Part shown: piece after piece, positions 1,622 through 45,320 of the stretch
Position numbering within the stretch: position 1 is the first letter of the stretch
Layout: each line of letters opens with the position of its first letter
Source of the DNA: an uncultured Methanobrevibacter sp.
GTDB taxonomy: Archaea; Methanobacteriota; Methanobacteria; Methanobacteriales; Methanobacteriaceae
Direction of reading: 5' to 3'
NCBI RefSeq assembly: GCF_947170395.1
Contig: NZ_CAMVTE010000018.1
Location: 1-45,320 of the forward strand
Length of the DNA: 45,320 nt
The notes under the pieces: generated by a model
What the model was told of the DNA's origin: nothing
What the model saw: only the letters and a program-made list of their open reading frames with translations
Databases searched by the model: none
Made by a program: the position numbers and the translations under genes

Positions 1622-3487
1622 TTATTGTTTCATTTTGATAATAAGCATTGCTATATCGTCAGATAGTTCCTGATTGCTGTAAAATTTGTTGAGGTCATTT
1701 TCAATGGATTTTATAATGCTGCTTAATTCATTATTCTTATTTTGATTTAATGTTTTTTGCAGATTTTCGTATCCGTAATATTCATCATTACTATTGTTTG
1801 CATCAGTAACTCCGTCAGTATATAAGAATAATGAATCATTAGGCTTTAATTGAATAACCTGTTTTTCATAGTGCATATTTTCCATTCCAGCTAAAAGTAA
1901 TCCTGGTTTACCACTCAAAAATTCAAAATCACCATCGTTTTGTTTAATTAATGGTTTTTTGTGTCCTGCATTAACATAAGTCAGTTCACCTGTTTTTGTA
2001 TTAAGTTTTCCAAGCCAACAGCTAACAAACACTTCTTCAACATTATCTTTACAAAGTTCGTTATTGGCTTCGTAAAATACTTCTGATAAATCTGAATAAT
2101 AGGTAGCATAATCTCTGAGTAATGTCATGGCCTTTACCATGATTAATGCAGTTGACACACCTTTTCCACTGACATCCCCTATTACAAATCCAATATTTTC
2201 ATCATTGATTTTGAAATAATCATAAAAGTCTCCACCAACCTCATGTGCCGCTTTCATAAATCCCCAAAGACTAAGATTATTATTTTCATTGAACTCTTCA
2301 AAATCTGTCGGAACCATTGAGTATTGAATTTCATGAGCTAATTTGAGTTCTGTTTCATATCTCTCTTTTTCTTTGGTTACATCCAATAAGTTGTTAGAAT
2401 AATCTACGAATTCCTTCTGCATGTTAAGCAGGGATTCAGACAGTGATTTTATTTCATTGCTTACGGTAATTGATTTCAAATTATTAACTAAATCCTCTAA
2501 ATCATTATCATCACTTATTTCTTCAGACAGATATGTGGATAACTGATTGACTGGTTGCATAACCTGTTTTTCCAAAAACAGCATATAAATTGTTAATGGT
2601 ATTAGAATGGCCAGGAAAAATCCAGATAACATAATAAGATAATTTAAAAATTCAGATGCAATACCAAATTCATAAACTCCGGTTATTGTTAATGAAATCA
2701 AAAGGATAGTTGGGATTATAATTAATATGACGAATATTGTAATAAATGCATTATAGAATAATGTAGGTTTTTGAGTATTTTCTATTTTAAAGACATCCTC
2801 ATCCAGTGGTTTAATTAAAAATATTCCTGAAAATATTAAAATTAACAGTAAATAAATAGTATTTGGACTATTTATTGTGATTAGTGAAAGAACTATTGAA
2901 GCTATGAAGAAAATCTCATATAATTTAATAGGCATGATTTTTTTAATTTGTTTTGGAGTATATACTGCAATATTTAATTTTCCAAATATTCCCATACCTA
3001 ACAAAAGCAAAATCAGTCCTAATACGAATATCATATAATAACTTTCAAGATTTAATTTGATGACTTTATCAAAGATGTGATTGGTAAATAGATATGTTTG
3101 CAGAATAATGAAAAATATGATACATATTATTTTAATGAAACTATTAAAACTGTTTAAATTAGGTATTTCATGATTTCTTTTAGTTTTTATTGAGTACCAT
3201 AATTTCCAAGGCATTATTCCCAAAATAAATAGGGATGAACCAGTTAATAAGATTGTTAGAGGATTGGTCATTCCTAAAAATAAAATCCAATATAATACTT
3301 CAACTATGGTAAATCCTAATATTGCATATGGACCTAACAATAAACTTAATAAAAGTAACGAGGACAACTCTAAGTGAATAGAATTGCTATCAAACCAGAT
3401 GGATCCAATTAAAATTAGCATTATATTTATCATCATGGAGATAAATATAATAAATTTCTGTGATTTGAAAAGTTCTTTACTAATCAT
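1622..3487 (-). CDS. Membrane PP2C-type serine phosphatase, RsbU/SpoIIE family (paralogue A)
   Basis: This 621-aa protein starts with about eight to ten hydrophobic segments (residues ~10-310), continues through a HAMP-like and coiled-coil linker (~305-385), and ends in a complete SpoIIE/RsbU PP2C phosphatase domain (~385-620). Metal-site motifs are all present: GGDFYD, GDVSGKG, NAGH, YTDGVTDA and DDIAML. Family knowledge says such enzymes dephosphorylate a phosphoserine on a STAS antagonist; the obvious partner is the STAS protein at 7425-7721. Its ATG overlaps the stop of the upstream paralogue by four bases (ATGA) and has AGGTGG in front, so the two are translationally coupled. The signal sensed by the membrane part is unknown. 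Confidence 0.9.
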   Translation of the reverse strand: MISKELFKSQKFIIFISMMINIMLILIGSIWFDSNSIHLELSSLLLLSLLLGPYAILGFTIVEVLYWILFLGMTNPLTILLTGSSLFILGIMPWKLWYSIKTKRNHEIPNLNSFNSFIKIICIIFFIILQTYLFTNHIFDKVIKLNLESYYMIFVLGLILLLLGMGIFGKLNIAVYTPKQIKKIMPIKLYEIFFIASIVLSLITINSPNTIYLLLILIFSGIFLIKPLDEDVFKIENTQKPTLFYNAFITIFVILIIIPTILLISLTITGVYEFGIASEFLNYLIMLSGFFLAILIPLTIYMLFLEKQVMQPVNQLSTYLSEEISDDNDLEDLVNNLKSITVSNEIKSLSESLLNMQKEFVDYSNNLLDVTKEKERYETELKLAHEIQYSMVPTDFEEFNENNNLSLWGFMKAAHEVGGDFYDYFKINDENIGFVIGDVSGKGVSTALIMVKAMTLLRDYATYYSDLSEVFYEANNELCKDNVEEVFVSCWLGKLNTKTGELTYVNAGHKKPLIKQNDGDFEFLSGKPGLLLAGMENMHYEKQVIQLKPNDSLFLYTDGVTDANNSNDEYYGYENLQKTLNQNKNNELSSIIKSIENDLNKFYSNQELSDDIAMLIIKMKQ

Positions 3488-5403
3488 TTTCCACCTGCTC
3501 CATTATATTTTATTATAAGCATTGTTGTATCGTCAAATTGCTTATTATTGCAAAACATATTAATGTCTTTATTAATTTCAGTTATTATGTCGCTTAATTT
3601 TTCATTTTTATTTTTATTGATTATTTCTTTTAAGCGGTCTTCTCCATAAAATTCATTATAATTGTCATTAGCTTCAGTAACTCCATCGGTATATAGGAAT
3701 ATCATGTCTCCGGCATTCAAATTAATTTCATGTTCGCTATATTTTATGTCTTTCATTCCTCCGATGACTAAATTTGGATGTGTATTCAAGTACTCAAAAT
3801 CAGAGGAGTCATGTTTAATTAACGGTTGGTTGTGTCCTGCATTAACATAGGACAGCTTTCCGCTATTTAAGTTTAATTTTCCAATCCATGTTGTTACAAA
3901 TAATTCCTCATCATTTCTTTCATAAGCCAAATTGTTTACTTTTTCAATAACCTGTGATAAATCATCATTAAATTTAGAATGATTTTTAATTAAATACATT
4001 GTTTTAACCATGAATAATGTTGAAGGAATTCCTTTACCGCTAACATCTCCTATAACGAAATATACATTATCATCAATTTTGAAATAATCATAGAAGTCCC
4101 CTCCAACTTCTCTTGCAGGTTTCATTGTAGCGCTGACTTCAAATTCATTTTCTGAAAATTCTTCGAAATTTTTTGGCACCATATTTGATTGTATGTCACT
4201 TGCCACATCAAATTCAGTTTTGAATTTTTCTTTTTCAGAAGTTGTAATTTGAATTTGATGTAAATTATTCCTAATCTTATAAAATGACCTTACAAATGAA
4301 TTGGCCAATATTCCAATACTGTCATTTCCAATGTATTTTTTTACATTAATAATTGATTCAATCCTATTTTCTGTTTTAAAGTAATTATCTGCAGTATCAA
4401 TTAGTGCGTAAAGTGGATTGGTTATATTTTTTTCTATGTATCTTATATGAATTAATGAAACCAATAATATCAGCACACTTGTGAATGCAATGATAAGTAA
4501 AAGTTGGTATGATGGATCAAGATTGGGTGTAAAAGATAAAATAAGTGTGTTGAAATAGTTAAAGTTCAAAAATATGGTTATGGATATGATTATTAAAAAG
4601 ATTAGTATAATTTCTTCAATAATTGAATAGTTGTCGTTCGTTGGTTTAATAGTCCTGTCAAAAGTATTGAAACATATCAGCAGAGAAGTCACTATTAATA
4701 TAAAGTAGAAAATATGCTTTATGAACCTAATGCCTTCAACGAATTCCTTAAACATGATATATGCTACACATATTAAAAGTACTGTTAAAAGATAATACGG
4801 GTTTATGTTTATTTTTGTTATCTTTCTTTTAGGAGTTCGTAAAGGTATCTTAAGTATATTAAAAGAACTAATCAGCAGCAATCCAAATATTAATGAAAAT
4901 GTGATAATATTTAAAATGTAAGGGAAGTTAAAATCCACGTCTGTAATGGAATATGAGAAATTTAAACCCGGATACAGTGAAAAAGAAATAACTAGGAGTG
5001 CAAAATATACAATGGAAACAATCACTGTAATGCAAAAGAACTTAACAATATTGTATGTTGAGTTAAATCTAGGTGTGTCTATTTTCTTTTTTGTTAAAAT
5101 ATTATACCATAATTTATATGCCAATAGTGAAATAAAAAATGTGGTTGCAAAATCAATAATCGGTGTAGGAAAGCCTATTCCTTCAATTAGTTCCCCAGTT
5201 AATGTTGCAGTTGCAAAACCCAAAGCTCCTACCGGACCAAACATCAAACCGAATGTTGGGGCGAAAGCCATATCTATAAATATGTAATTGCCTCCAATAC
5301 GTTGATATTCGAAAAGGTAGTTTAATATCAATTCCACACAAAATGTGAAAATGAATATGAATATTGGATTACTGAATAACTTTTTTATTTTTGAAGGAAC
5401 CAT
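3484..5403 (-). CDS. Membrane PP2C-type serine phosphatase, RsbU/SpoIIE family (paralogue B)
   Basis: This 639-aa paralogue of the downstream gene is the first gene of its two-gene operon. It has many membrane segments (~1-330), then a linker, then a complete PP2C phosphatase domain (~395-635) with GGDFYD, GDVSGKG, NAGH, YTDGVTEA and DDTTML. The N-terminal stretch APTFGLMFGPVGALGFATATLTGELIEG resembles small-molecule-binding membrane modules but belongs to no family I can name with confidence. The membrane halves of the two phosphatases differ much more than the catalytic halves, which fits two sensors feeding one target. It is transcribed divergently from the MATE-STAS-GH3 operon across a 260-bp gap. 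Confidence 0.9.
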   Translation of the reverse strand: MVPSKIKKLFSNPIFIFIFTFCVELILNYLFEYQRIGGNYIFIDMAFAPTFGLMFGPVGALGFATATLTGELIEGIGFPTPIIDFATTFFISLLAYKLWYNILTKKKIDTPRFNSTYNIVKFFCITVIVSIVYFALLVISFSLYPGLNFSYSITDVDFNFPYILNIITFSLIFGLLLISSFNILKIPLRTPKRKITKININPYYLLTVLLICVAYIMFKEFVEGIRFIKHIFYFILIVTSLLICFNTFDRTIKPTNDNYSIIEEIILIFLIIISITIFLNFNYFNTLILSFTPNLDPSYQLLLIIAFTSVLILLVSLIHIRYIEKNITNPLYALIDTADNYFKTENRIESIINVKKYIGNDSIGILANSFVRSFYKIRNNLHQIQITTSEKEKFKTEFDVASDIQSNMVPKNFEEFSENEFEVSATMKPAREVGGDFYDYFKIDDNVYFVIGDVSGKGIPSTLFMVKTMYLIKNHSKFNDDLSQVIEKVNNLAYERNDEELFVTTWIGKLNLNSGKLSYVNAGHNQPLIKHDSSDFEYLNTHPNLVIGGMKDIKYSEHEINLNAGDMIFLYTDGVTEANDNYNEFYGEDRLKEIINKNKNEKLSDIITEINKDINMFCNNKQFDDTTMLIIKYNGAGGK

Positions 5404-5663
5404 TGAATATTATGTATAAATACTAGCATATATAAATCTTTTTTAAATGATTTTTCAAAAAATGTTAGTAATTAATAGAACAAATTGGGTTTTCTTATGA
5501 ATAATTATATAATTTCTGACTATTCTAAAAAGTATTCAATATATTATTTCATTACATTAAATTGTATGATGTGTTAGAAATACGAATATTCTAATTAAAA
5601 ATTATATGTATATATATTTAAAAATTTAAAAATAGTAATGTGTATTTTACAGTTGGTTGAATT
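5404..5663. promoter_or_regulatory. Divergent promoter region between phosphatase operon and MATE-STAS-GH3 operon
   Basis: This is 260 bp of very AT-rich DNA. Reading leftward, TTTATATATG around 5430-5440 is a TATA candidate for the phosphatase operon. Reading rightward, the stretch at about 5600-5625 (TATATGTATATATATTT) is the TATA candidate for the MATE operon. TTAGAA at 5574-5579 and TTCTAA at 5589-5594 form an inverted repeat with a 9-base spacer just before the rightward TATA region, a possible operator. The MATE ATG at 5664 has only a weak GGTTGA ahead of it. Positions of transcription starts are inference. Confidence 0.5.
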
Positions 5664-7412
5664 ATGAATTTATTAAGCAGTGATAATAAATTATTAAATT
5701 CCTTTTTTAAAAACTATTTATTCGGGACAGTAATTTCTGTAGTACTCACTATTTTAACTGTTATTTTAAATGGAATAATCATTGGCAATTTCTTTGGCAA
5801 TATTGGTCTTGCAGCATTCGGCTTGGCAATGCCAATTATTTATGCCAATTTGGCAATAGGGTATATTTTCTCGTATGGTGGTTCTATTGTCGCATCCAAT
5901 AACATGGCTGATGAAAAAAGAGTAAACAATAATTTCTCAGTGACTTGTATTGTTGCAGCAATTGTGGGGATTGTTTTAACTGCATCATTGTTATTTTTTT
6001 CAACAAATGTTGCCCAAATATTAGGTGCATCAGGTGAATCATTAGATGCAACTGTATCACTAATGAGAGGTTTGTTTTTAACGATATTGCCTTTGATGTT
6101 TTTATATATTTTTGTAAATTATTCAAGAATCGATGGGTATCCTCTATTGGGTCTTTATGCCGGTTTGATATTGTTTATATTAAATTTAATTTTAGATTTG
6201 GTATTTGTACTGATATTGAAAATGGATATTTTTGGTATTGGGCTTGCAACTGCATTAAGCAACCTGATTACAGTTCTATTTCTATTAAGCCATTTTCTTT
6301 CAAAAAAAAGTTCATATAAATTCCAAAAGAATTTAGAATTTAAAATGGAATTGTCCCAGATAATCAAATCCGGCCTTCCAAGTGCTTTAAATCAGGTTTA
6401 TAATATGGCCCGTACAATAATCACAAATAATTTAGGAGTATGGGTTGGCGGAGTTATATTTTTAGGTGCCCTTTCTGTCCAATCGAATGTTTATACATTG
6501 TTATGTAGTGTAGGTATTGGAATCGGATCAACCACTTTAGCGCTGGGTGGTGTTTTTTATGGTGAAAATGATAAAACTCACTTGGAACAATTATTAGGAA
6601 TATCAATTAAATATGCATTGGTTATCATTTTTATTATTTCTATAATTCTCTTTATTTTCGCCCCTTATTTCGTTTACATGTTCGGTAATAATCCTGAAGT
6701 GTATGACACTGCAATAAGAGGTCTTAGAATATTTGCATGGTCTTTGCCGTTTTCCGGATTATGTTTTATTTTATTGAACTTTTATAATGCAACACAGCAG
6801 CTAAAAATTGCCAATTATATTAGTTTCGCCCATAGTTTCTTATTCTTGTCAGCATTTGCAACCATATTTTCATTTTTAATTGGTGGCGACGGTATTTGGA
6901 TAAGTTTTGTATTGTGTGAAATCGTTACATTGCTTAGTTTACCATTCTTAATTAAATTAAAAACTAAAAAATTCCCTAAATCGTTAAGTGATTTTGTAAT
7001 TATGGATGAAAATGAATTCCCATCTGAAGATACTTATGTGGCATATCTTGAGTCCGAAGAGGAGTTATTGGACCTCGTTGAGAATATTGATGAAAAATTG
7101 AATGATAGTGATTTGGATGATAAAACCAAATTGAGAATACAATTGATACTTGAGGAAATGGGAACAACTATTTTTACCCATGCCTATAAATTTAAGAAAA
7201 ACAAATATTTAAATATCAGAATTCTTTATAAGAACACTGAAGAAGTTATTATTTATTTCCAGGACAATGGTGTTCCTTTTGATATTGAAGGGGATATCGG
7301 CAATAAAACTGAATTTTATGGAATTAAAATAGTCAAAAACTTTTCAAAAGACATAGATTACAATAACAACCTTAAATTAAATAACAATAAGATTATTATT
7401 CCTAAAAACTAA
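5664..7412 (+). CDS. MATE-family transporter fused to a C-terminal RsbW-like HATPase domain
   Basis: Residues ~1-440 form a MATE (MOP superfamily) transporter: about twelve hydrophobic helices in two similar halves, with features such as GNIGLAAFGLAMPI. MATE proteins export drugs or metabolites using Na+ or H+ gradients. After a linker at ~445-460 comes a domain like the anti-sigma kinases SpoIIAB/RsbW (~460-582). In it, QLILEEMGTTIFTHAY is the N-box equivalent, DNGVPF (D534) the G1 box and GIKIVKNF the G2 box. The Mg-binding Asn of the N-box is replaced by Thr502 and the G2 box is poor in glycine, so this copy may bind a STAS partner without being an active kinase. It is the first gene of an operon, 12 bases before the STAS gene. 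Confidence 0.88.
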   Translation: MNLLSSDNKLLNSFFKNYLFGTVISVVLTILTVILNGIIIGNFFGNIGLAAFGLAMPIIYANLAIGYIFSYGGSIVASNNMADEKRVNNNFSVTCIVAAIVGIVLTASLLFFSTNVAQILGASGESLDATVSLMRGLFLTILPLMFLYIFVNYSRIDGYPLLGLYAGLILFILNLILDLVFVLILKMDIFGIGLATALSNLITVLFLLSHFLSKKSSYKFQKNLEFKMELSQIIKSGLPSALNQVYNMARTIITNNLGVWVGGVIFLGALSVQSNVYTLLCSVGIGIGSTTLALGGVFYGENDKTHLEQLLGISIKYALVIIFIISIILFIFAPYFVYMFGNNPEVYDTAIRGLRIFAWSLPFSGLCFILLNFYNATQQLKIANYISFAHSFLFLSAFATIFSFLIGGDGIWISFVLCEIVTLLSLPFLIKLKTKKFPKSLSDFVIMDENEFPSEDTYVAYLESEEELLDLVENIDEKLNDSDLDDKTKLRIQLILEEMGTTIFTHAYKFKKNKYLNIRILYKNTEEVIIYFQDNGVPFDIEGDIGNKTEFYGIKIVKNFSKDIDYNNNLKLNNNKIIIPKN

Positions 7413-7424
7413 ATTGGTGACTTT

Positions 7425-7721
7425 ATGGATATAGAAAAACAAAAAGACGGAAAAAAGTTAGATATTAAATTGGTGGGTAGATTGGATACAAAAACTGCTC
7501 CTGAACTATCAGAAGTACTAAAAGATAGCTTAACGGATGTTGAGGAGTTAACTTTTGATTTATCTGACTTGATTTATATTTCAAGTGCAGGACTTAGAAT
7601 AATTTTGTCTACTCAAAAAACAATGAACGTACAAGGCTCTATGAAGGTAACTAATGTTCAGGATATTGTTATGGAGGTATTTGAATCAACTGGATTTGTA
7701 GATATCTTGACAATTGAGTAG
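7425..7721 (+). CDS. STAS-domain anti-sigma-factor-antagonist-like protein (SpoIIAA/RsbV type)
   Basis: This is a 98-aa single STAS domain, the usual length for SpoIIAA/RsbV. The signature is FDLSDLIYISSAGLRIIL; the serine two places before the glycine (Ser54) aligns with the serine phosphorylated in SpoIIAA and RsbV. In bacteria, the unphosphorylated form binds an RsbW-type kinase and the phosphorylated form lets go. Here the protein lies between two genes whose products carry RsbW-like domains and faces two PP2C phosphatases, so it is the likely hub of a partner switch. GGTGA precedes the ATG. Spacing to the neighbours is 12 and 15 bases, indicating one transcript. Confidence 0.92.
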   Translation: MDIEKQKDGKKLDIKLVGRLDTKTAPELSEVLKDSLTDVEELTFDLSDLIYISSAGLRIILSTQKTMNVQGSMKVTNVQDIVMEVFESTGFVDILTIE

Positions 7722-7736
7722 TTTTGAGGCTGAATT

Positions 7737-9872
7737 ATGGATTTAAGCAATATCGATATTTCTAAATTATCCTTTTCTGAACGGTTTTATTTAAAGTGTA
7801 TTTCAGATGGAAATAAGGTTCGTGAATCATTAGATATCATGACCAAGGATCCTATGAAATATAATGCTGATTTGTTGTTTAAAATTCTTGAGGATAATAA
7901 AGATACAGAGTATGGTCAAAAATATGATTTTGCAAATATTAAAAGCATTGAGGAATATCAAAACAAGGTTCCTATAACTGATTATGATAGCTATGCAGAT
8001 TACATTTACAGAATGACTGAAAACGGAGAGAAAAATCTATTAACCTCCTATGAAATAATTCATTATGCAAAATCATCCGGTACAATGGGAAATCCTAAAA
8101 GGATACCTACCAGCTCTCTTAATCAAGAAATCAACATGAAATATAATTATGCTTATCTATTCAACATGTTTTCTGAAAAAGTTGGTTTTGACTGGATTAA
8201 ATATCCTTTTTTAAATTTAACAGAACTTTCCATATCTACATTGCCTTCCGGTGACACTTATGGTTCTATTTCAGGTAAGATAATGGGTGGTTTTGGCGAT
8301 AAAATTTCTGAGTTTATCACATCTCCGATTGAGGCTTTAGTTCCAGAGGTTGGTACTGATATTCGTTATATTCATGCACGCTTTGCATTAATAAATCCTG
8401 ACATCTCATTTACAATAACCAGTTTTGTAAGTTTGTTTTTAGAAATTTTACGTTACATTAAAGGTAATTGGGAGCTGTTAGTTAAAGATATTGAAAATGG
8501 GACTATTAATGAGTCTGTAAAAATGTCTGATGAAGTTCGTGAAAGTTTACTTGGAAAAATCAAACCGATGCCTGAAAGGGCAGATGAACTTAGAAAAATA
8601 TTTAAAGAAGGCTTTGATGAACCTATTGTTCCTAAAATTTGGCCAAGAATGTTGCTCCTTATAGGATGCGGATCTGGAGGTTTTTCAAATTATGTTGAAA
8701 AAATAAAAAAGTTTACAGGTCCGGAATTTAATTTTGCATTAATCGGATTAACTGCATCCGAAGGCATATTCTCACTTTTCACAGAATTAAACAGTCATGA
8801 TGAAATTCTCATACCTGACAGCATGTTTTATGAATTTTTACCGTTGGATGCTGATGGGGACTTTAGCAAAATCGTGACTCTGGATAAATTAGAAGAAGGA
8901 AAAGACTATGAAGTTATTACTACTAATCTATCCGGATTTTATCGTTACAGGATGAAAGATGCTGTTCGATGTATTGGAAAATATAACAACACACCAATGA
9001 TTGAATTTTTATATAGGCTGGACCAATGTTTAAGTTTGGCCGGTGAGAAGGTTAACGAAGAAAATTTAAGAGCGGCGGCATATAAAACAGAAAAGGATTT
9101 GGGATTCGATTTAATAGATTTCTCAGTTTATGCTGATTCCGATTCATCTCCAATGAAATATGTTTATTTAATGGAAGTGGATGATCTACCGGATGATGTA
9201 ACAAAAGGAATCATTCAGGAAAAAATAAATGAGAATTTCTGTGCTACTGATCCAGTTTTATGTAATAAACTCGATAAATGTTTACTTGGAAAAACAGAAC
9301 TTCATTTGCTGCAACCTGAAACTTATTTGTTATATAAAGAATTAAAAGTTGCCAGAGGTTCTTCTCCAGCCCAAGTTAAACCTCCTAGAGTATTAAGAGA
9401 TGAACTAGATAGGTCTTTCTTCAATATTTTAATAGATGAAGAATTGGACCAGGATTATGGATGGAATATGGAAGAAATTATTTTAAAATCTAATACAGAT
9501 AATTTAGATTCACTTTTATTAACAATTGAAGAATTGCTCGAAGATAAAGGAGTCCCAATGAAATCTAAATTGCAGTTGGAGTTAATAATTGAAGAATTGT
9601 TTGTAAATATTTGTAATTATGCTTATGAAAAAGAGGATGAAATAAAAATTCAATATGTGATTTTAAATGATCCTTTGAGGATAATTATGAACTTTATAGA
9701 TAGTGGAATAGAGTTTAATCCTTTAAATATGGATGGTCCTGATTTAACTCTTGAAGCAGAAAAAAGAGAAATTGGTGGATTAGGTTTAACAATAGTTCGA
9801 AAAAATGTCGATGGGATAGATTACAAATATGAAAATAATCAAAACATTCTAACTATTGAAAAAATATTTTAA
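7737..9872 (+). CDS. GH3-family acyl-acid ligase fused to a C-terminal RsbW-like HATPase domain
   Basis: Residues ~30-570 are a GH3 (auxin-responsive family) adenylating enzyme: the ATP-binding SSGTMGNPKRIP, the LTASEGIFS motif, GFYRYRMKDAVRC, LAGEKVNEENL and the closing VKPPRVLRD are all recognisable. Plant GH3 enzymes adenylate a carboxylic acid and join it to an amino acid; prokaryotic substrates are not known to me. Residues ~585-711 are an RsbW-like HATPase domain with an intact N-box (EELFVNICNYAY, Asn624), G1 box DSGIEF (D655) and G2 box GGLGLTIVRK. Unlike the MATE fusion, this copy looks able to bind ATP and to phosphorylate a STAS serine. It is the last gene of the operon. GAGG precedes the ATG. 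Confidence 0.88.
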   Translation: MDLSNIDISKLSFSERFYLKCISDGNKVRESLDIMTKDPMKYNADLLFKILEDNKDTEYGQKYDFANIKSIEEYQNKVPITDYDSYADYIYRMTENGEKNLLTSYEIIHYAKSSGTMGNPKRIPTSSLNQEINMKYNYAYLFNMFSEKVGFDWIKYPFLNLTELSISTLPSGDTYGSISGKIMGGFGDKISEFITSPIEALVPEVGTDIRYIHARFALINPDISFTITSFVSLFLEILRYIKGNWELLVKDIENGTINESVKMSDEVRESLLGKIKPMPERADELRKIFKEGFDEPIVPKIWPRMLLLIGCGSGGFSNYVEKIKKFTGPEFNFALIGLTASEGIFSLFTELNSHDEILIPDSMFYEFLPLDADGDFSKIVTLDKLEEGKDYEVITTNLSGFYRYRMKDAVRCIGKYNNTPMIEFLYRLDQCLSLAGEKVNEENLRAAAYKTEKDLGFDLIDFSVYADSDSSPMKYVYLMEVDDLPDDVTKGIIQEKINENFCATDPVLCNKLDKCLLGKTELHLLQPETYLLYKELKVARGSSPAQVKPPRVLRDELDRSFFNILIDEELDQDYGWNMEEIILKSNTDNLDSLLLTIEELLEDKGVPMKSKLQLELIIEELFVNICNYAYEKEDEIKIQYVILNDPLRIIMNFIDSGIEFNPLNMDGPDLTLEAEKREIGGLGLTIVRKNVDGIDYKYENNQNILTIEKIF

Positions 9873-39455: not shown

Positions 39456-39678
39456 TGAATTTTCGTCAAAAAATTTTTGACTTATTTTTTCTTATTTTTA
39501 TCTGATTCCATTTGTATTTTTTCTAATTTTATTTTATCAATTTTTTATTTAATTTTTAATTTATTAATTCTTTGATTGAATGTTATTTTTAATTTAAAGT
39601 GTTTTTACAATAGTTAAGTTTATATACTTGATTATACATAGTTAATATTAAGTATTAGTTATTTTGGTGTTGTTGTTT

Positions 39679-41175
39679 ATGGTTAAAAGAAATTTGGCTA
39701 AGGAACAGAGTAAATTGGGCATTAAGACTTTGGATTGTAACATTCCAGGGAAGCATATTTCCCGTTTTGTTGTGGATTTTATTGAAGAAGTTTATCCGAT
39801 TTTGAATATTAAAGAACCAAAGAAAAAGAAAGGAAGAGACTCTTTACCTATTGTTTCCATGTTAAAATTGCTTGTTTATGCAAAAATCGAGCACGTAGAA
39901 AGTGCCAGGATTATTGCAGAGATGGCAAGGTATCATGAGATATATAAATTCGTTTCTGATGAAGTAATGCCATCAGAACGCTCAGTACAAAGGTACAGGA
40001 GAGAATACGGATGTTATTTCGAAGTATTGCTCAAAATGACATTAAAAAAGGCATCAGATTTAAAATTAACAAAGTTTAATCATGTTGCAGTTGATGGAAC
40101 CATCAAAAAAGCATACAATTCCAACAACAATGTCATCAGCAAAAAAGAAACACAAATATTGCTCGATTACTTCAGCGGACTATCAGTTGATCCTGAAAAG
40201 CTAGAAAAACTCCACAAACCCGCCAAAAACATACTCGAAAATAAAGACACGGATATTGAAGATAAAATAGAACTATTATATGACATTAAAACACAATTCA
40301 CATTCACAGGACAAGATACAATACCAGTAAATGATATTGAAGCAAGATTCATGAAAGGTATGAAAGGAAACTCCCTCATTGCCTATAATATCCAATCTGC
40401 AGTCGATTACGATACCAAACTAATCTGCGCAATAAACGTCACGCAAAACCCAACAGACCATTATGAACTACCAGCAATCGCAGAAAGAGTAATACAAAAC
40501 ATACAAACCACTCCAAAATACATAAGCGCCGACACAATATATTTAAACCAAATAAGCTTATCCTACCTCGCAGATAAAAAAATAGAAGGATTAATACCAA
40601 ATAGAAAACAATCCAAAGAAAAAATAGGAAAATTAAACCCAAATCCCTACCACAAAGACAATTTCGAATACGATTACAAACTAGACACATTCAAATGCCC
40701 AGAAAACAACTATCTGCACTTTTTCGGAAAATACATAGAACCACACAAAGACCCAGAAAAACCAGACAAAATAAAAAGAATATACAACAATTATGATGCA
40801 TGTAAGAACTGCAAAGCACGAAACAAATGCTGTTCAAGCTCACAAACACACAGAACCATCACAGAATACGGCTCTGAAATGCAAAAAGCAATGAATCAGA
40901 AAATGGAAAAACAAGAATATAAAGACGAATATGCCAAAAGATCAAGTGTTGAAGGACCATTTGGAATATTAAAAGAACAATTCGACATAGAAAAAGAAGT
41001 GGTCATCGGAATGGTCAGAACAGAAGAAAGACTCAACCTAGATGCTCTGGCATATAACTTAATCAGATTATACAACATGACACAGGAAATAAAAAATTCA
41101 AAAGAAGATTTAGAAAATTTCTGCGAACGAGAATCAGTAATACATCAATTAAAACTCGATGTGACCATATTCTAG
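39679..41175 (+). CDS. IS1182-family DDE transposase
   Basis: This 498-aa transposase moves the element. The DDE residues appear in NHVAVDGTIKKAYN (D about 138), YISADTIYLN (D about 284) and KRSSVEGPFGILK (E about 424). A cysteine group (CPENN, CKNCKARNKC) before the last acidic residue is typical of the IS1182 family. I start at ATG 39679 (MVKRNLAKE); the frame is open to a TTG at 39664. Base composition drifts within the gene: the first 400 bases are T- and G-rich while the rest is strongly A- and C-rich on the same strand. It seems full length and possibly active. Confidence 0.9.
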   Translation: MVKRNLAKEQSKLGIKTLDCNIPGKHISRFVVDFIEEVYPILNIKEPKKKKGRDSLPIVSMLKLLVYAKIEHVESARIIAEMARYHEIYKFVSDEVMPSERSVQRYRREYGCYFEVLLKMTLKKASDLKLTKFNHVAVDGTIKKAYNSNNNVISKKETQILLDYFSGLSVDPEKLEKLHKPAKNILENKDTDIEDKIELLYDIKTQFTFTGQDTIPVNDIEARFMKGMKGNSLIAYNIQSAVDYDTKLICAINVTQNPTDHYELPAIAERVIQNIQTTPKYISADTIYLNQISLSYLADKKIEGLIPNRKQSKEKIGKLNPNPYHKDNFEYDYKLDTFKCPENNYLHFFGKYIEPHKDPEKPDKIKRIYNNYDACKNCKARNKCCSSSQTHRTITEYGSEMQKAMNQKMEKQEYKDEYAKRSSVEGPFGILKEQFDIEKEVVIGMVRTEERLNLDALAYNLIRLYNMTQEIKNSKEDLENFCERESVIHQLKLDVTIF

Positions 41176-41837: not shown

Positions 41838-41870
41838 AAAAATAAAAAAAGAGCAAGTGCATTTGCACTT
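41838..41870 (-). terminator. Terminator of the surface protein gene
   Basis: On the minus strand AAGTGCA, two bases, TGCACTT form a perfect 7-bp hairpin (41855-41870) overlapping the stop codon region, followed by GCTC and TTTTTTTATTTTTTT. Confidence 0.75.
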
Positions 41871-44800
41871 ACTTAATTGTTATTTTTACAGATTTGCTTG
41901 CTGATTCGTAAGTGTTGTCACCAGCGTATTTAATGGAAGCTGAGAATTTGCCTTTTTTGATTATTTTAAGGCTGAATGTTGCTTGACCTTTAGCATTTGT
42001 TTTTGCTGTGTAGGTTTTTCCATTGATTTTCATGGTGACTTTTTTGCCTGCAGCGAAGTATGTTTTACCGTCAGCGGATGCTCCTTTGATTGTTTTGAGT
42101 GTTACTGTGTACTTTTTGGTTTTAGCGGATGCTTTGTATGTTTTTGCAGCGGCACTTATTGTAACAGGTTTTTTGGTTATGGTAATCAGATATACTGAGA
42201 GGGTTGCGTTGTAGTCTTCATCACCTAAGAAAGCAACAGCAAATGTTAATCTGTTTGCATCTTGTAAGTTGATTTGTACTCTAGCGAAACCGTTTTCATC
42301 AGTTGTTCTCTCTAATGATTTACCATTGTAACCAATATAAACTGTTTTGTTTGCAAGTGGAACGCCGTTTGCGTCAACCAATTGTACAGTGAAGTTTTGT
42401 CCTCTTTCACCAGCCCTATACTCAATAGCGCTTTGAGTGTAGTTATTACCTACAATAACAGTTGAAGCTCTCACAGGCGCTAAATCTTTAATAGTAATTG
42501 TAGTATTTACCGGTGAAATTAAATCACTTCCAGCATACTTCAATTCAACAACACTATTTGAAGAAGCATTGATTGAAACGATACCCTTATCATCTGTTTT
42601 TGCAGTGAATGCTTTGCCGTTGATTGTGTAGGTCAAATCAGCGTTTGCGATTGGAGCGCCTGTACCGTCAACCAATTTGACTGTTATTACAGCATCACCT
42701 GATATGACAATTTCTGTAAACTCACTTGCCTTAGGACCAACGCTGATTGCTTTGGTGAGTTTGCTAGGAGCGTGAGTTTCATCGCCGTTGTATACAACTT
42801 CGACAGTGTGTTCACCGACATCAAGTCCAGGAATAGTGTAGTTGGCTTTGCCGTCCACAATAGGAACTTCAGTTGCAACTCCATCAACAATTACAGTTAC
42901 GTTTCCGGTTGCTCCAGGGGCATCAACAGTAATTGGGGTGTCTTCACCCGCTTTGATGTCGCTTGGAACATCAACTGTGATGTTTGCTTCAGGTTTTGGA
43001 GCTTTGACTGTGAAGTCTTGGGAAGTTACGTTGGTGTTGTATCTGGAATCGCCTAAGTAGGTTGCAACTACAGTGTAGTCTCCAGGAACCAATATGTCAT
43101 AGAGATATCCGACACCGTTTACGACATCAACATAGAGGACGTAGTATTCAGGACCTGTTACTTCAAGTTTGACAAGGCCTGTGGCATTTGGATTAACGTT
43201 GACTGTAAATGTGACGTTATTCTCATCAATGCCTAAATCCATGCTGATTGTTGTGTTTTCTTTTGCAACATCAACAACAGTGAATGTCACAATAGTGCTG
43301 TTTTGATTGAAGTTGTCATCACCGAGATAGGTTAAATCTGCAGTGTAGCTACCTGCTGCGAAGGTGTTGATGAATGAACCTTCACCATTGACAAGTTCTA
43401 CATTGAAAATGCTATCTCCAATCTTAACTTTGACAAATCCTGTAGCGTTAGCGTCAACATTAACGTCAATGGTTACGCGATAACCGTTAACGTAGGCATC
43501 CGCCTTGATAGGAGTGTCGACTTTTACGTGTCCTTTGACTGTGAATTGCTCAGAAGTAATGTTGGTGTTAAACTTGTCATCACCCATGTAGGTTGCAACT
43601 ACAGTGTAATCTCCAGGAACTAGAATGTCATAGAGATATGCAACTCCGTCAATAACATCCACATACAATACGTAATGTTCAGGACCGGTTACTTCGTATT
43701 TTACGATACCGGTAGCCCTATTATCGACATTGGCATAGAATGTTACGTTGTTTTCATCAACACCGATGTCAATGCTGATTGGAGTGGACTCTTTTACAGG
43801 ATCAACGACTGTGAATGTCACAATAGTGCTGTTTTGGTTGAAGTTGTCATCACCGAGATATGTTAAGTCTGCGTAGTAACTTCCAGCAACCAGATTGGTG
43901 GTTACTGAACCTGCACCGTCAATCAATTCTACATTGAAGATGGTGTCTCCCAATTTGACTTTAACGAAACCTGTTGCAGTAGCGTCAACATTAACATCAA
44001 TGGTTACGCGGTATCCGTTAACATCAGCGCCGGCTGAAATTGGAGTGTCCTTCTTGATGTGTCCTGCGACTGTGAATTTCTCGGAAGTTATGTTTGAGTT
44101 GAATCTGCCATCACCCATGTAGGTTGCATATACTGTATAGTCTCCAGGAACGAGGATATCATAGAGGTATCCTACACCGTCTTCAACATCTACGTATAGG
44201 AGATAGTGTTCAGGACCTATTACTTCATATTTTACAAGACCTGTAGCTCTATTATCGACATTTGCAGTGAATGTGACGTTGGTTTCGAATCCTCCGATAT
44301 CAATGCTGATTGGAGTGGACTCTTTAACAGGGTCAACAACTGTGAATGTCACTTTGGTAGCGTTTTGGTTGAAGTTGTCATCACCCAGATATGTTAAATC
44401 TACATAGTAACTTCCGGCAGCCAAAGTGGTAATCAATGAACCTGCGCCGTTGGTTAATTCGATATTTGCAATTGTGTCTGCCAGTTTTACTCTAACAAAT
44501 CCGGTTGCATTTGGATTTACATTAACGGTTATGGTTGTGCGGTAACCATTGATATTAGCATCAGCATCAATTGCAGTGTTCTGTTTTTCATGACCTTTCA
44601 CTGTGAATGATTGTGTTGTGATGTTGGTGTTGAATCTTGCATCGCCCATGTATGTCGCAATTACAGTATAATCGCCAGCAACCAGAATGTCTTCAAGTAT
44701 TGCTTTACCATTTATGACATCTGCATATACTGTGTATTCTTCGGTTCCGGTTACTTCGAATTTGGCAATGCCAGTAGCGTCAGAATCAACATCCACAATA

Positions 44801-45320
44801 TAAACAACATCATTTTCATCAATCACAACATTTAAATCAATGTCCGTATTTTCTTTTACAGGGTCTATAATGACAAATTCCAAACTGGTACTGTTTTCGT
44901 TGTAGTTGTCGTCTCCAATGTATCTGATTGCAAAGTTGTAGCTTCCGGCATGTAAAGTGTTATTTACTGAAGTAGCGCCGTTCTCTAGTGCCAAATAAAT
45001 GGTGGAATCCTTGGTTGTCAGTTCAATGAATCCTGTTGCGTTTGGATTTACATTAACATTGATTTCTGCAGTATATCCGTTTATTTTAACATTTGCATCA
45101 ATTGTAGTGTTTTGCTTTGTGTGTCCTTTAATTGTGAAGCTTTCAGAGGTTACATTGGTGTTGTATTTATCATCGCCCATGTATGTCGCAATTACAGTGT
45201 AATCACCAGTATCTAGAATATCTACAAGTATTGCTTTACCATCAATGACATCAGCATATACAAGGTATTCTTCAGTTCCGGTTACTTTGAATTTGACAAG
45301 ACCAGTAGCATCAGAATTAA
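41869..45320 (-). CDS. Adhesin-like surface protein with tandem Ig-like domains (N-terminus outside window)
   Basis: The frame is open from the right edge of the window to the TAA at 41869, at least 1,149 residues. The visible N-terminal two thirds consist of alternating Ig-like domains of about 88-89 residues, with the landmarks ATYMGDxRFNTNITS, NGYxxxIxVNVNPNATGFVKVKL, YLGDDNFNQNST and LYDILVPGDYTV. Then come PEANITVDVPSDIKAGEDTP and further Ig-like domains. The end is a basic, Lys/Thr-rich domain (KTYTAKTNAKGQATFSLKI, YAGDNTYESASKSVKITIK) typical of Methanobrevibacter adhesin-like proteins. No anchor is seen, so binding to the pseudomurein wall may be by the N-terminal or basic C-terminal part. 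It is probably glycosylated at many NxT/NxS sites. Confidence 0.9.
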   Translation of the reverse strand, partial: NSDATGLVKFKVTGTEEYLVYADVIDGKAILVDILDTGDYTVIATYMGDDKYNTNVTSESFTIKGHTKQNTTIDANVKINGYTAEINVNVNPNATGFIELTTKDSTIYLALENGATSVNNTLHAGSYNFAIRYIGDDNYNENSTSLEFVIIDPVKENTDIDLNVVIDENDVVYIVDVDSDATGIAKFEVTGTEEYTVYADVINGKAILEDILVAGDYTVIATYMGDARFNTNITTQSFTVKGHEKQNTAIDADANINGYRTTITVNVNPNATGFVRVKLADTIANIELTNGAGSLITTLAAGSYYVDLTYLGDDNFNQNATKVTFTVVDPVKESTPISIDIGGFETNVTFTANVDNRATGLVKYEVIGPEHYLLYVDVEDGVGYLYDILVPGDYTVYATYMGDGRFNSNITSEKFTVAGHIKKDTPISAGADVNGYRVTIDVNVDATATGFVKVKLGDTIFNVELIDGAGSVTTNLVAGSYYADLTYLGDDNFNQNSTIVTFTVVDPVKESTPISIDIGVDENNVTFYANVDNRATGIVKYEVTGPEHYVLYVDVIDGVAYLYDILVPGDYTVVATYMGDDKFNTNITSEQFTVKGHVKVDTPIKADAYVNGYRVTIDVNVDANATGFVKVKIGDSIFNVELVNGEGSFINTFAAGSYTADLTYLGDDNFNQNSTIVTFTVVDVAKENTTISMDLGIDENNVTFTVNVNPNATGLVKLEVTGPEYYVLYVDVVNGVGYLYDILVPGDYTVVATYLGDSRYNTNVTSQDFTVKAPKPEANITVDVPSDIKAGEDTPITVDAPGATGNVTVIVDGVATEVPIVDGKANYTIPGLDVGEHTVEVVYNGDETHAPSKLTKAISVGPKASEFTEIVISGDAVITVKLVDGTGAPIANADLTYTINGKAFTAKTDDKGIVSINASSNSVVELKYAGSDLISPVNTTITIKDLAPVRASTVIVGNNYTQSAIEYRAGERGQNFTVQLVDANGVPLANKTVYIGYNGKSLERTTDENGFARVQINLQDANRLTFAVAFLGDEDYNATLSVYLITITKKPVTISAAAKTYKASAKTKKYTVTLKTIKGASADGKTYFAAGKKVTMKINGKTYTAKTNAKGQATFSLKIIKKGKFSASIKYAGDNTYESASKSVKITIK
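43054..45320 (-). repeat. Tandem 531-bp coding repeats in the surface protein gene
   Basis: The equivalent codon of the ATYMGD landmark lies at 45178, 44647, 44116, 43585 and 43054: four steps of exactly 531 bp (177 residues, two Ig-like domains each). Copies are similar but not identical in DNA, and the most alike are those between about 43590 and 44650. The array goes on beyond the window. Confidence 0.88.

Follow-up and report, generated by a model that had tools for sequence, protein, structure and literature searches.

The five genes at positions 1622-9872 of the window analysed here, a stretch of 45,320 nucleotides from an uncultured Methanobrevibacter sp. (contig NZ_CAMVTE010000018.1, assembly GCF_947170395.1), form a partner-switch set that, in its most economical reading, lets a STAS protein directly control the synthesis and export of a small product. 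We put the probability at roughly 0.6 that the target of this switch is not a sigma factor but a small-molecule ligase together with its exporter, both controlled post-translationally. Two SpoIIE-type phosphatase genes diverge from an operon encoding a MATE exporter fused to an RsbW/SpoIIAB-like domain (hereafter W; the fusion is MATE-W), a STAS protein and a GH3 ligase fused to a second W domain (GH3-W). Two RsbU/SpoIIE phosphatases, a STAS protein with Ser54 and two RsbW-like domains encoded back to back had been described in a first-pass annotation, and these sequence parts were confirmed; the system is real, conserved and more informative than that annotation had assumed. Its features in the window are:

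1622-3487, minus strand: sensor phosphatase 1, N-terminal hydrophobic part and SpoIIE/PP2C domain (1631-2203; 167.5 bits)
3484-5403, minus strand: sensor phosphatase 2, N-terminal hydrophobic part and SpoIIE/PP2C domain (3505-4074; 163.6 bits)
5404-5663, no strand: A+T-rich intergenic region separating the two divergent transcription units; by eye, it contains TATA-like stretches
5664-7412, plus strand: MATE exporter (about residues 3-440) with C-terminal RsbW/SpoIIAB-like, likely pseudokinase domain (about residues 457-582; 7032-7409)
7425-7721, plus strand: STAS anti-anti-sigma-like protein (TIGR00377 above cut-off), predicted phospho-acceptor Ser54 at 7584-7586
7737-9872, plus strand: GH3 acyl-acid amido synthetase (about residues 20-555) with RsbW-like kinase domain (residues 576-711; 9462-9869)

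The N-terminal parts of both phosphatases are membrane-like, as judged by eye, and both proteins have the metal-site acids, which are kept in 140-149 of 151 phosphatase domains among the matches listed. The exporter shows the MATE transmembrane fold, while the ligase contains the GH3 N, M and C domains together with the adenylation-motif residues and matches plant GH3 structures in the PDB with E ~1e-41. These adenylation-motif residues are largely kept in the 78 main GH3s that we compared.

The two W domains differ in the residues that we take, from the SpoIIAB literature, to be the Glu base, the Mg-binding Asn, the DxG motif and the GGxG lid of the kinase. In a common alignment, GH3-W has the full set in 41 of 42 distinct copies (50 of 51 rows), as do 71 of 72 distinct stand-alone W domains covering the lid (7/7, 29/31 and 36/37 rows by locus type). 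By contrast, both lid glycines are present in none of the 67 distinct MATE-W copies that cover the ATP lid (73 distinct in all), one row having a G in the first lid column; the original MATE-W row sets included duplicates (P0121 is the window's own protein) and truncated rows and were recounted as distinct rows. A second set from a genome scan, overlapping the first, gave the full residue set in 0 of 15 MATE-W proteins (one of them, L196, not alignable) compared with 17 of the 20 remaining W domains; the three that lack it are a fragment of 89 aa and two proteins of 481 aa whose identity is doubtful (L184 has no Pfam hit). The STAS serine was kept in 120 of 121 copies. Both kinase-like domains had been annotated as fused to working proteins; the fusions stand, and the idea that both fused domains are kinases is rejected on the lid comparison between MATE-W and GH3-W.

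In the window, the Pfam score of the MATE-fused W is below cut-off. The predicted structure of the full MATE-W (predicted local distance difference test, pLDDT, 85.1; predicted template modelling score 0.81) matched only MATE-like and related flippase structures and barely tested the C-terminal part, so this domain was modelled alone; it was predicted to be well folded (pLDDT 87.5), with a match to the SpoIIAB/RsbW fold. Moreover, a Glu pair, an Asp, a Tyr and an Asn are invariant in 20 aligned MATE-W copies, both archaeal and bacterial. Taken from sequence and model, the MATE-fused W is likely a pseudokinase dock, a form suited to reading out unphosphorylated STAS by binding it and not using it up. 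For the GH3-fused W alone, phmmer gave no match in the PDB; a profile search did match RsbW. The MATEs of L057, L069 and L152 (560-564 aa) have a C-terminal stretch that may be a still more decayed W, with weak scores of 0.7-10.4 bits.

From these parts we infer how binding, phosphorylation and the direction of control may be arranged. The two membrane phosphatases would respond to a signal from outside or in the membrane by dephosphorylating STAS at Ser54, and the W fused to GH3 would be the opposing kinase. Unphosphorylated STAS would dock on the pseudokinase domain of the exporter, a stable read-out that opens or licenses the MATE, and also on GH3-W, changing the activity of the ligase, where activation and inhibition are both possible. 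The GH3 would join an acyl acid to an amino acid (or peptide) by an amide, and the MATE would export the product; once the signal is off, GH3-W would re-phosphorylate STAS and both targets would return to their resting state. The likely product is an N-acyl amino acid or a peptide amide, because the GH3 resembles plant acyl-acid amido synthetases; the two GH3s, RimK-type ligases and ATP-binding cassette (ABC) exporters of relatives speak for short peptides.

Of 138 genomes from the family Methanobacteriaceae, 18 have the GH3 core, a count that leaves out G086 and G047, which have end fragments of GH3-W only. STAS is encoded in the same cluster in 16 of the 18 (the two without are L051 and L052), and 14 of these 16 STAS-GH3 clusters have an exporter, MATE-W in 10 and ABC in 4, with none visible in L040 and L044. 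GH3-W and MATE-W fusions occur together in 4 of the 138 genomes; other members of the family in which a kinase was seen encode it separately, by a gene of 134-152 aa, and one genome of the family has STAS fused to GH3. Conserved co-occurrence in archaeal genomes had been suggested as a check, and the gene set does recur in relatives and well beyond them, so the objection that it lacks conservation fails.

A scan of named genomes, from which the best 80 of 102 confirmed GH3 matches were taken, yielded 79 loci, mostly in metagenome-assembled genomes (MAGs). STAS lies at most 8 kb from GH3 in 30 of them, 15 archaeal and 15 bacterial, and directly adjoins it (from overlap to 333 bp) in 24 loci, on the same strand in all 24. 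STAS density is 0.277 per kb within 500 bp of GH3 as against three STAS in ~799 kb at a distance of 2.5-11 kb, a concentration by which we reject chance gene order. MATE-W is present in 13 of the 30 STAS-GH3 loci, an ABC exporter gene in 13 and a RimK-type ligase in nine. Named strains with STAS-GH3 clusters are Methanobrevibacter cuticularis, M. curvatus, Senegalimassilia anaerobia, Acetobacterium tundrae and A. bakii, and similar gene sets are present in several gut bacteria. The view of the module as an archaeal peculiarity does not hold up in the face of these bacterial loci and of three bacterial carriers, out of ten searched, with a single sigma70_r2 hit.

STAS-linked GH3s were distributed over Methanobacteriota, Thermoplasmatota, Bacillota, Actinomycetota and Bacteroidota in a tree of 78 main GH3s, including that of the window, and 15 second GH3s (L168, a near copy, and one locus with a GH3 below 400 residues were left out). 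On this tree, which was made by a quick method, is unrooted and has several long branches, the archaeal and bacterial main GH3s require at least four changes of domain label, by which, together with the bacterial half of the STAS-GH3 loci, an archaea-only invention is rejected. The placement of STAS-linked GH3s in archaeal and bacterial phyla suggests transfer between the domains among anaerobes, within the limits of a quick tree with long branches and many MAGs; because most genomes are MAGs, single bacterial assignments, above all the two Bacteroidota, could be binning errors.

The fused partner varies between loci, from GH3-W in the window to STAS-GH3 (L049), GH3-STAS (L211) and SpoIIE-W (L197, L202, L207). 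A MATE-W-STAS protein, P0147, is a read-through of adjacent genes in which the MATE stop was apparently lost in frame with STAS, and is therefore weak evidence of a selected fusion. In an Oscillospiraceae MAG, a STAS fused to an APH-type phosphotransferase (L211:6437-7615) is encoded near MATE-W and the GH3-STAS fusion. A gene for a PAS/HisKA_2 histidine kinase (L036:5783-7651) lies between phosphatases and MATE-W, and tandem phosphatase pairs adjoin an ABC exporter gene without STAS or W nearby in L061, L064, L065 and L070. Among clostridia, GH3 genes stand beside a condensation-like gene (by a local profile) in L225, L227, L229-L232 and L239, and in L220, L223, L224 and L226 the GH3 is followed by two genes and then a MATE, the two genes being a DUF819 protein and a pyridoxal phosphate decarboxylase in L220, the one tested.

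A sister cluster lies on another contig of the same genome (L254:916-10466 on contig C5 of G000, with L034:6558-9740), where genes for a non-ribosomal peptide synthetase (NRPS; 2604 aa) and then a MATE-W (574 aa) diverge from genes for STAS, W, a phosphatase and a phosphopantetheinyl transferase (PPTase). Here, too, MATE-W has no glycine lid. The window cluster has a GH3 and no NRPS gene, the NRPS being in the sister cluster; by Pfam search, two of the 13 MATE genes of the genome carry a W domain, both in switch clusters. Additionally, we surveyed phosphatase loci, of which 126 had a phosphatase among 135 examined, counting matches listed only and with many loci on short contigs. GH3, a condensation domain, PPTase or MATE was nearby in 71 of 91 phosphatase loci with STAS or W and in 6 of 35 with neither; GH3 loci had partly been chosen for their GH3, and 71/91 becomes 60/80 without the 11 GH3 loci. 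Because of the sister NRPS cluster and the position of most STAS- or W-bearing phosphatase loci, we read the window system as the GH3 member of a wider habit, in which partner switches are attached to non-ribosomal product synthesis and export.

This wider family is not archaeal in particular, and its NRPS branch has been known since 2010, when the authors of the M. ruminantium M1 genome proposed sensing, regulation and export for the NRPS clusters mru0066-0071 and mru0512-0516 (PMC2812497). In the passages describing them, these clusters, like the window, have serine phosphatases, STAS and a MatE exporter around a biosynthetic function, and a third M1 cluster also has an RsbW-like kinase and a PPTase (PMC2812497). 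The window differs from the M1 clusters as described there in having a GH3 for the NRPS, a kinase domain fused to the ligase and a likely pseudokinase domain on the exporter; "GH3" does not occur in the main text of that paper. The GH3 variant is new, and the association of partner-switch genes with a MatE exporter beside biosynthesis is not unprecedented. Searches of the open-licence PMC literature, preprints not included, found no paper that treats GH3 together with STAS, a fusion of MATE to RsbW or a GH3 of Methanobrevibacter, and likewise none on SenB, the molecule name of PDB 9qih. A bacterial GH3, the planctomycete enzyme OlsH, makes lyso-ornithine lipid (PMC12493201); it is, like the window protein, a GH3 ligase outside plants, and its model is the only NCBIfam GH3 model to match, with 70.3 bits against an equivalog cut-off of 620, by which we reject the window GH3 as an OlsH.

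SpoIIAA/AB/E and RsbV/W/U of Bacillus share with the window the same three protein families and, in PDB alignments, the same serine position. The Bacillus systems release a sigma factor, whereas none was found in the genome of the window, where sigma70_r2 had no match (88.8% complete; search control 10/14); the first-pass remark that there is no sigma factor to switch agrees with this, and a sigma factor as target in this genome is rejected. A single sigma70_r2 hit was obtained in three of ten bacterial carriers, counted per genome and unmapped relative to the loci. A precedent for direct action is SiaABCD of Pseudomonas aeruginosa, whose STAS-like protein activates an enzyme by binding to it unless phosphorylated by the kinase SiaB, which shows that direct activation of an enzyme by such a protein, and its shut-off by the kinase, do occur; the target there is a diguanylate cyclase, and the passages concerned describe no exporter and no kinase-target fusion (PMC8457831).

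Control of transcription after all, in which STAS or W would bind an archaeal transcription factor from another locus and the fusions would serve just to localise the parts, is in our judgement unlikely. The classical targets of partner-switch modules are transcription factors. Regulation of NRPS expression was proposed in the 2010 genome paper (PMC2812497), and in M1 the transcripts of the PPTase, one NRPS and two MatE genes changed with lauric acid, all listed with positive values, a sign that expression is under some form of control (PMC5816558); yet no recurring regulator gene was seen in the cluster maps, in which most neighbours are unclassified. The failure to find a sigma-70 domain in this genome, the single hit in three of ten bacterial carriers and the fusion of switch domains to ligase, exporter or phosphatase argue instead for direct control, as had been suggested earlier for export and acyl conjugation. 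Slightly less probable still is detoxification, in which the GH3 conjugates harmful aromatic or fatty acids of the gut with an amino acid, the MATE expels the conjugate and the acid itself switches the system on. In its favour, PDB names show GH3 enzymes conjugating a range of acids, the substrates of OlsH are ornithine and fatty acids (PMC12493201) and MATE is a broad exporter family; however, the RimK-type ATP-grasp ligases, second GH3s and ABC exporters added in some relatives, together with the NRPS of the sister cluster, look like product assembly.

The W domains might also serve mainly as a scaffold, GH3-W and MATE-W pairing like SpoIIAB or RsbW, which act as dimers, to hand the product over while STAS breaks or makes the pair. 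Co-occurrence of a kinase-competent W with a degenerate MATE-W in many MATE-type clusters and the modelled SpoIIAB/RsbW fold are compatible with this, but among the loci mapped a GH3-fused kinase W is confined to the window's own lineage, the others having it as a separate protein or attached to a phosphatase, so tethering of GH3 itself is not general, and we hold the idea to be quite improbable. That the MATE-fused domain is instead a decaying remnant without a role, leaving GH3-W and STAS as the only active switch, seems very improbable to us: the low Pfam score, the lost ATP lid, the often lost Asn and perhaps the further decay in some other MATEs would agree with it, but a remnant should not keep the invariant residues across two domains of life, and the domain is predicted to be well folded.

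Several observations weigh against direct control of ligase and exporter by STAS. An ABC exporter without MATE-W is found in 10 of the 30 STAS-GH3 loci and no exporter in seven, so a W-gated exporter is not universal, and 49 of the 79 GH3 loci lack a STAS gene at up to 8 kb, some of the contigs being short. Of the MATE-W proteins, 24 of 76 retain the N-box Asn, as do 7/10 and 6/6 locus copies, and loss of the ATP lid is no proof that MATE-W lost ATP binding. Other targets may be reached in trans by STAS or W, and STAS also has outlets besides ligase and exporter, since it is fused to an APH-type kinase in L211 and, in the third STAS of the window's genome (L256:2408-3676, G000 contig C64), to the C-terminus of a protein that looks methyltransferase-like by eye. 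Furthermore, the other seven of the ten bacterial carriers have 3-19 sigma70_r2 hits. At the far end of the window, a transposase-like gene (39664-41175) and a gene for a large repeat-rich surface protein (41869-45180, at the window's end) were recognised by eye.

In conclusion, direct on-off control of a secreted small product is probable in this methane-producing gut archaeon. We propose, tentatively and at somewhat less than even odds, a sigma-free class of switch in gut archaea and bacteria, in which a MATE pseudokinase reads STAS, the kinase lies in or beside the peptide- or amide-forming enzyme and a single phospho-serine jointly gates synthesis and export of a secreted small molecule. 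We know of no transporter that is a partner-switch target, and a literature search gave none; if our reading is true, a transporter would be added to these targets, there would be an answer to how cells that lack sigma factors use a sigma-type switch, and STAS Ser54 would offer a handle by which methanogens and gut bacteria could be made to activate silent small-molecule production.

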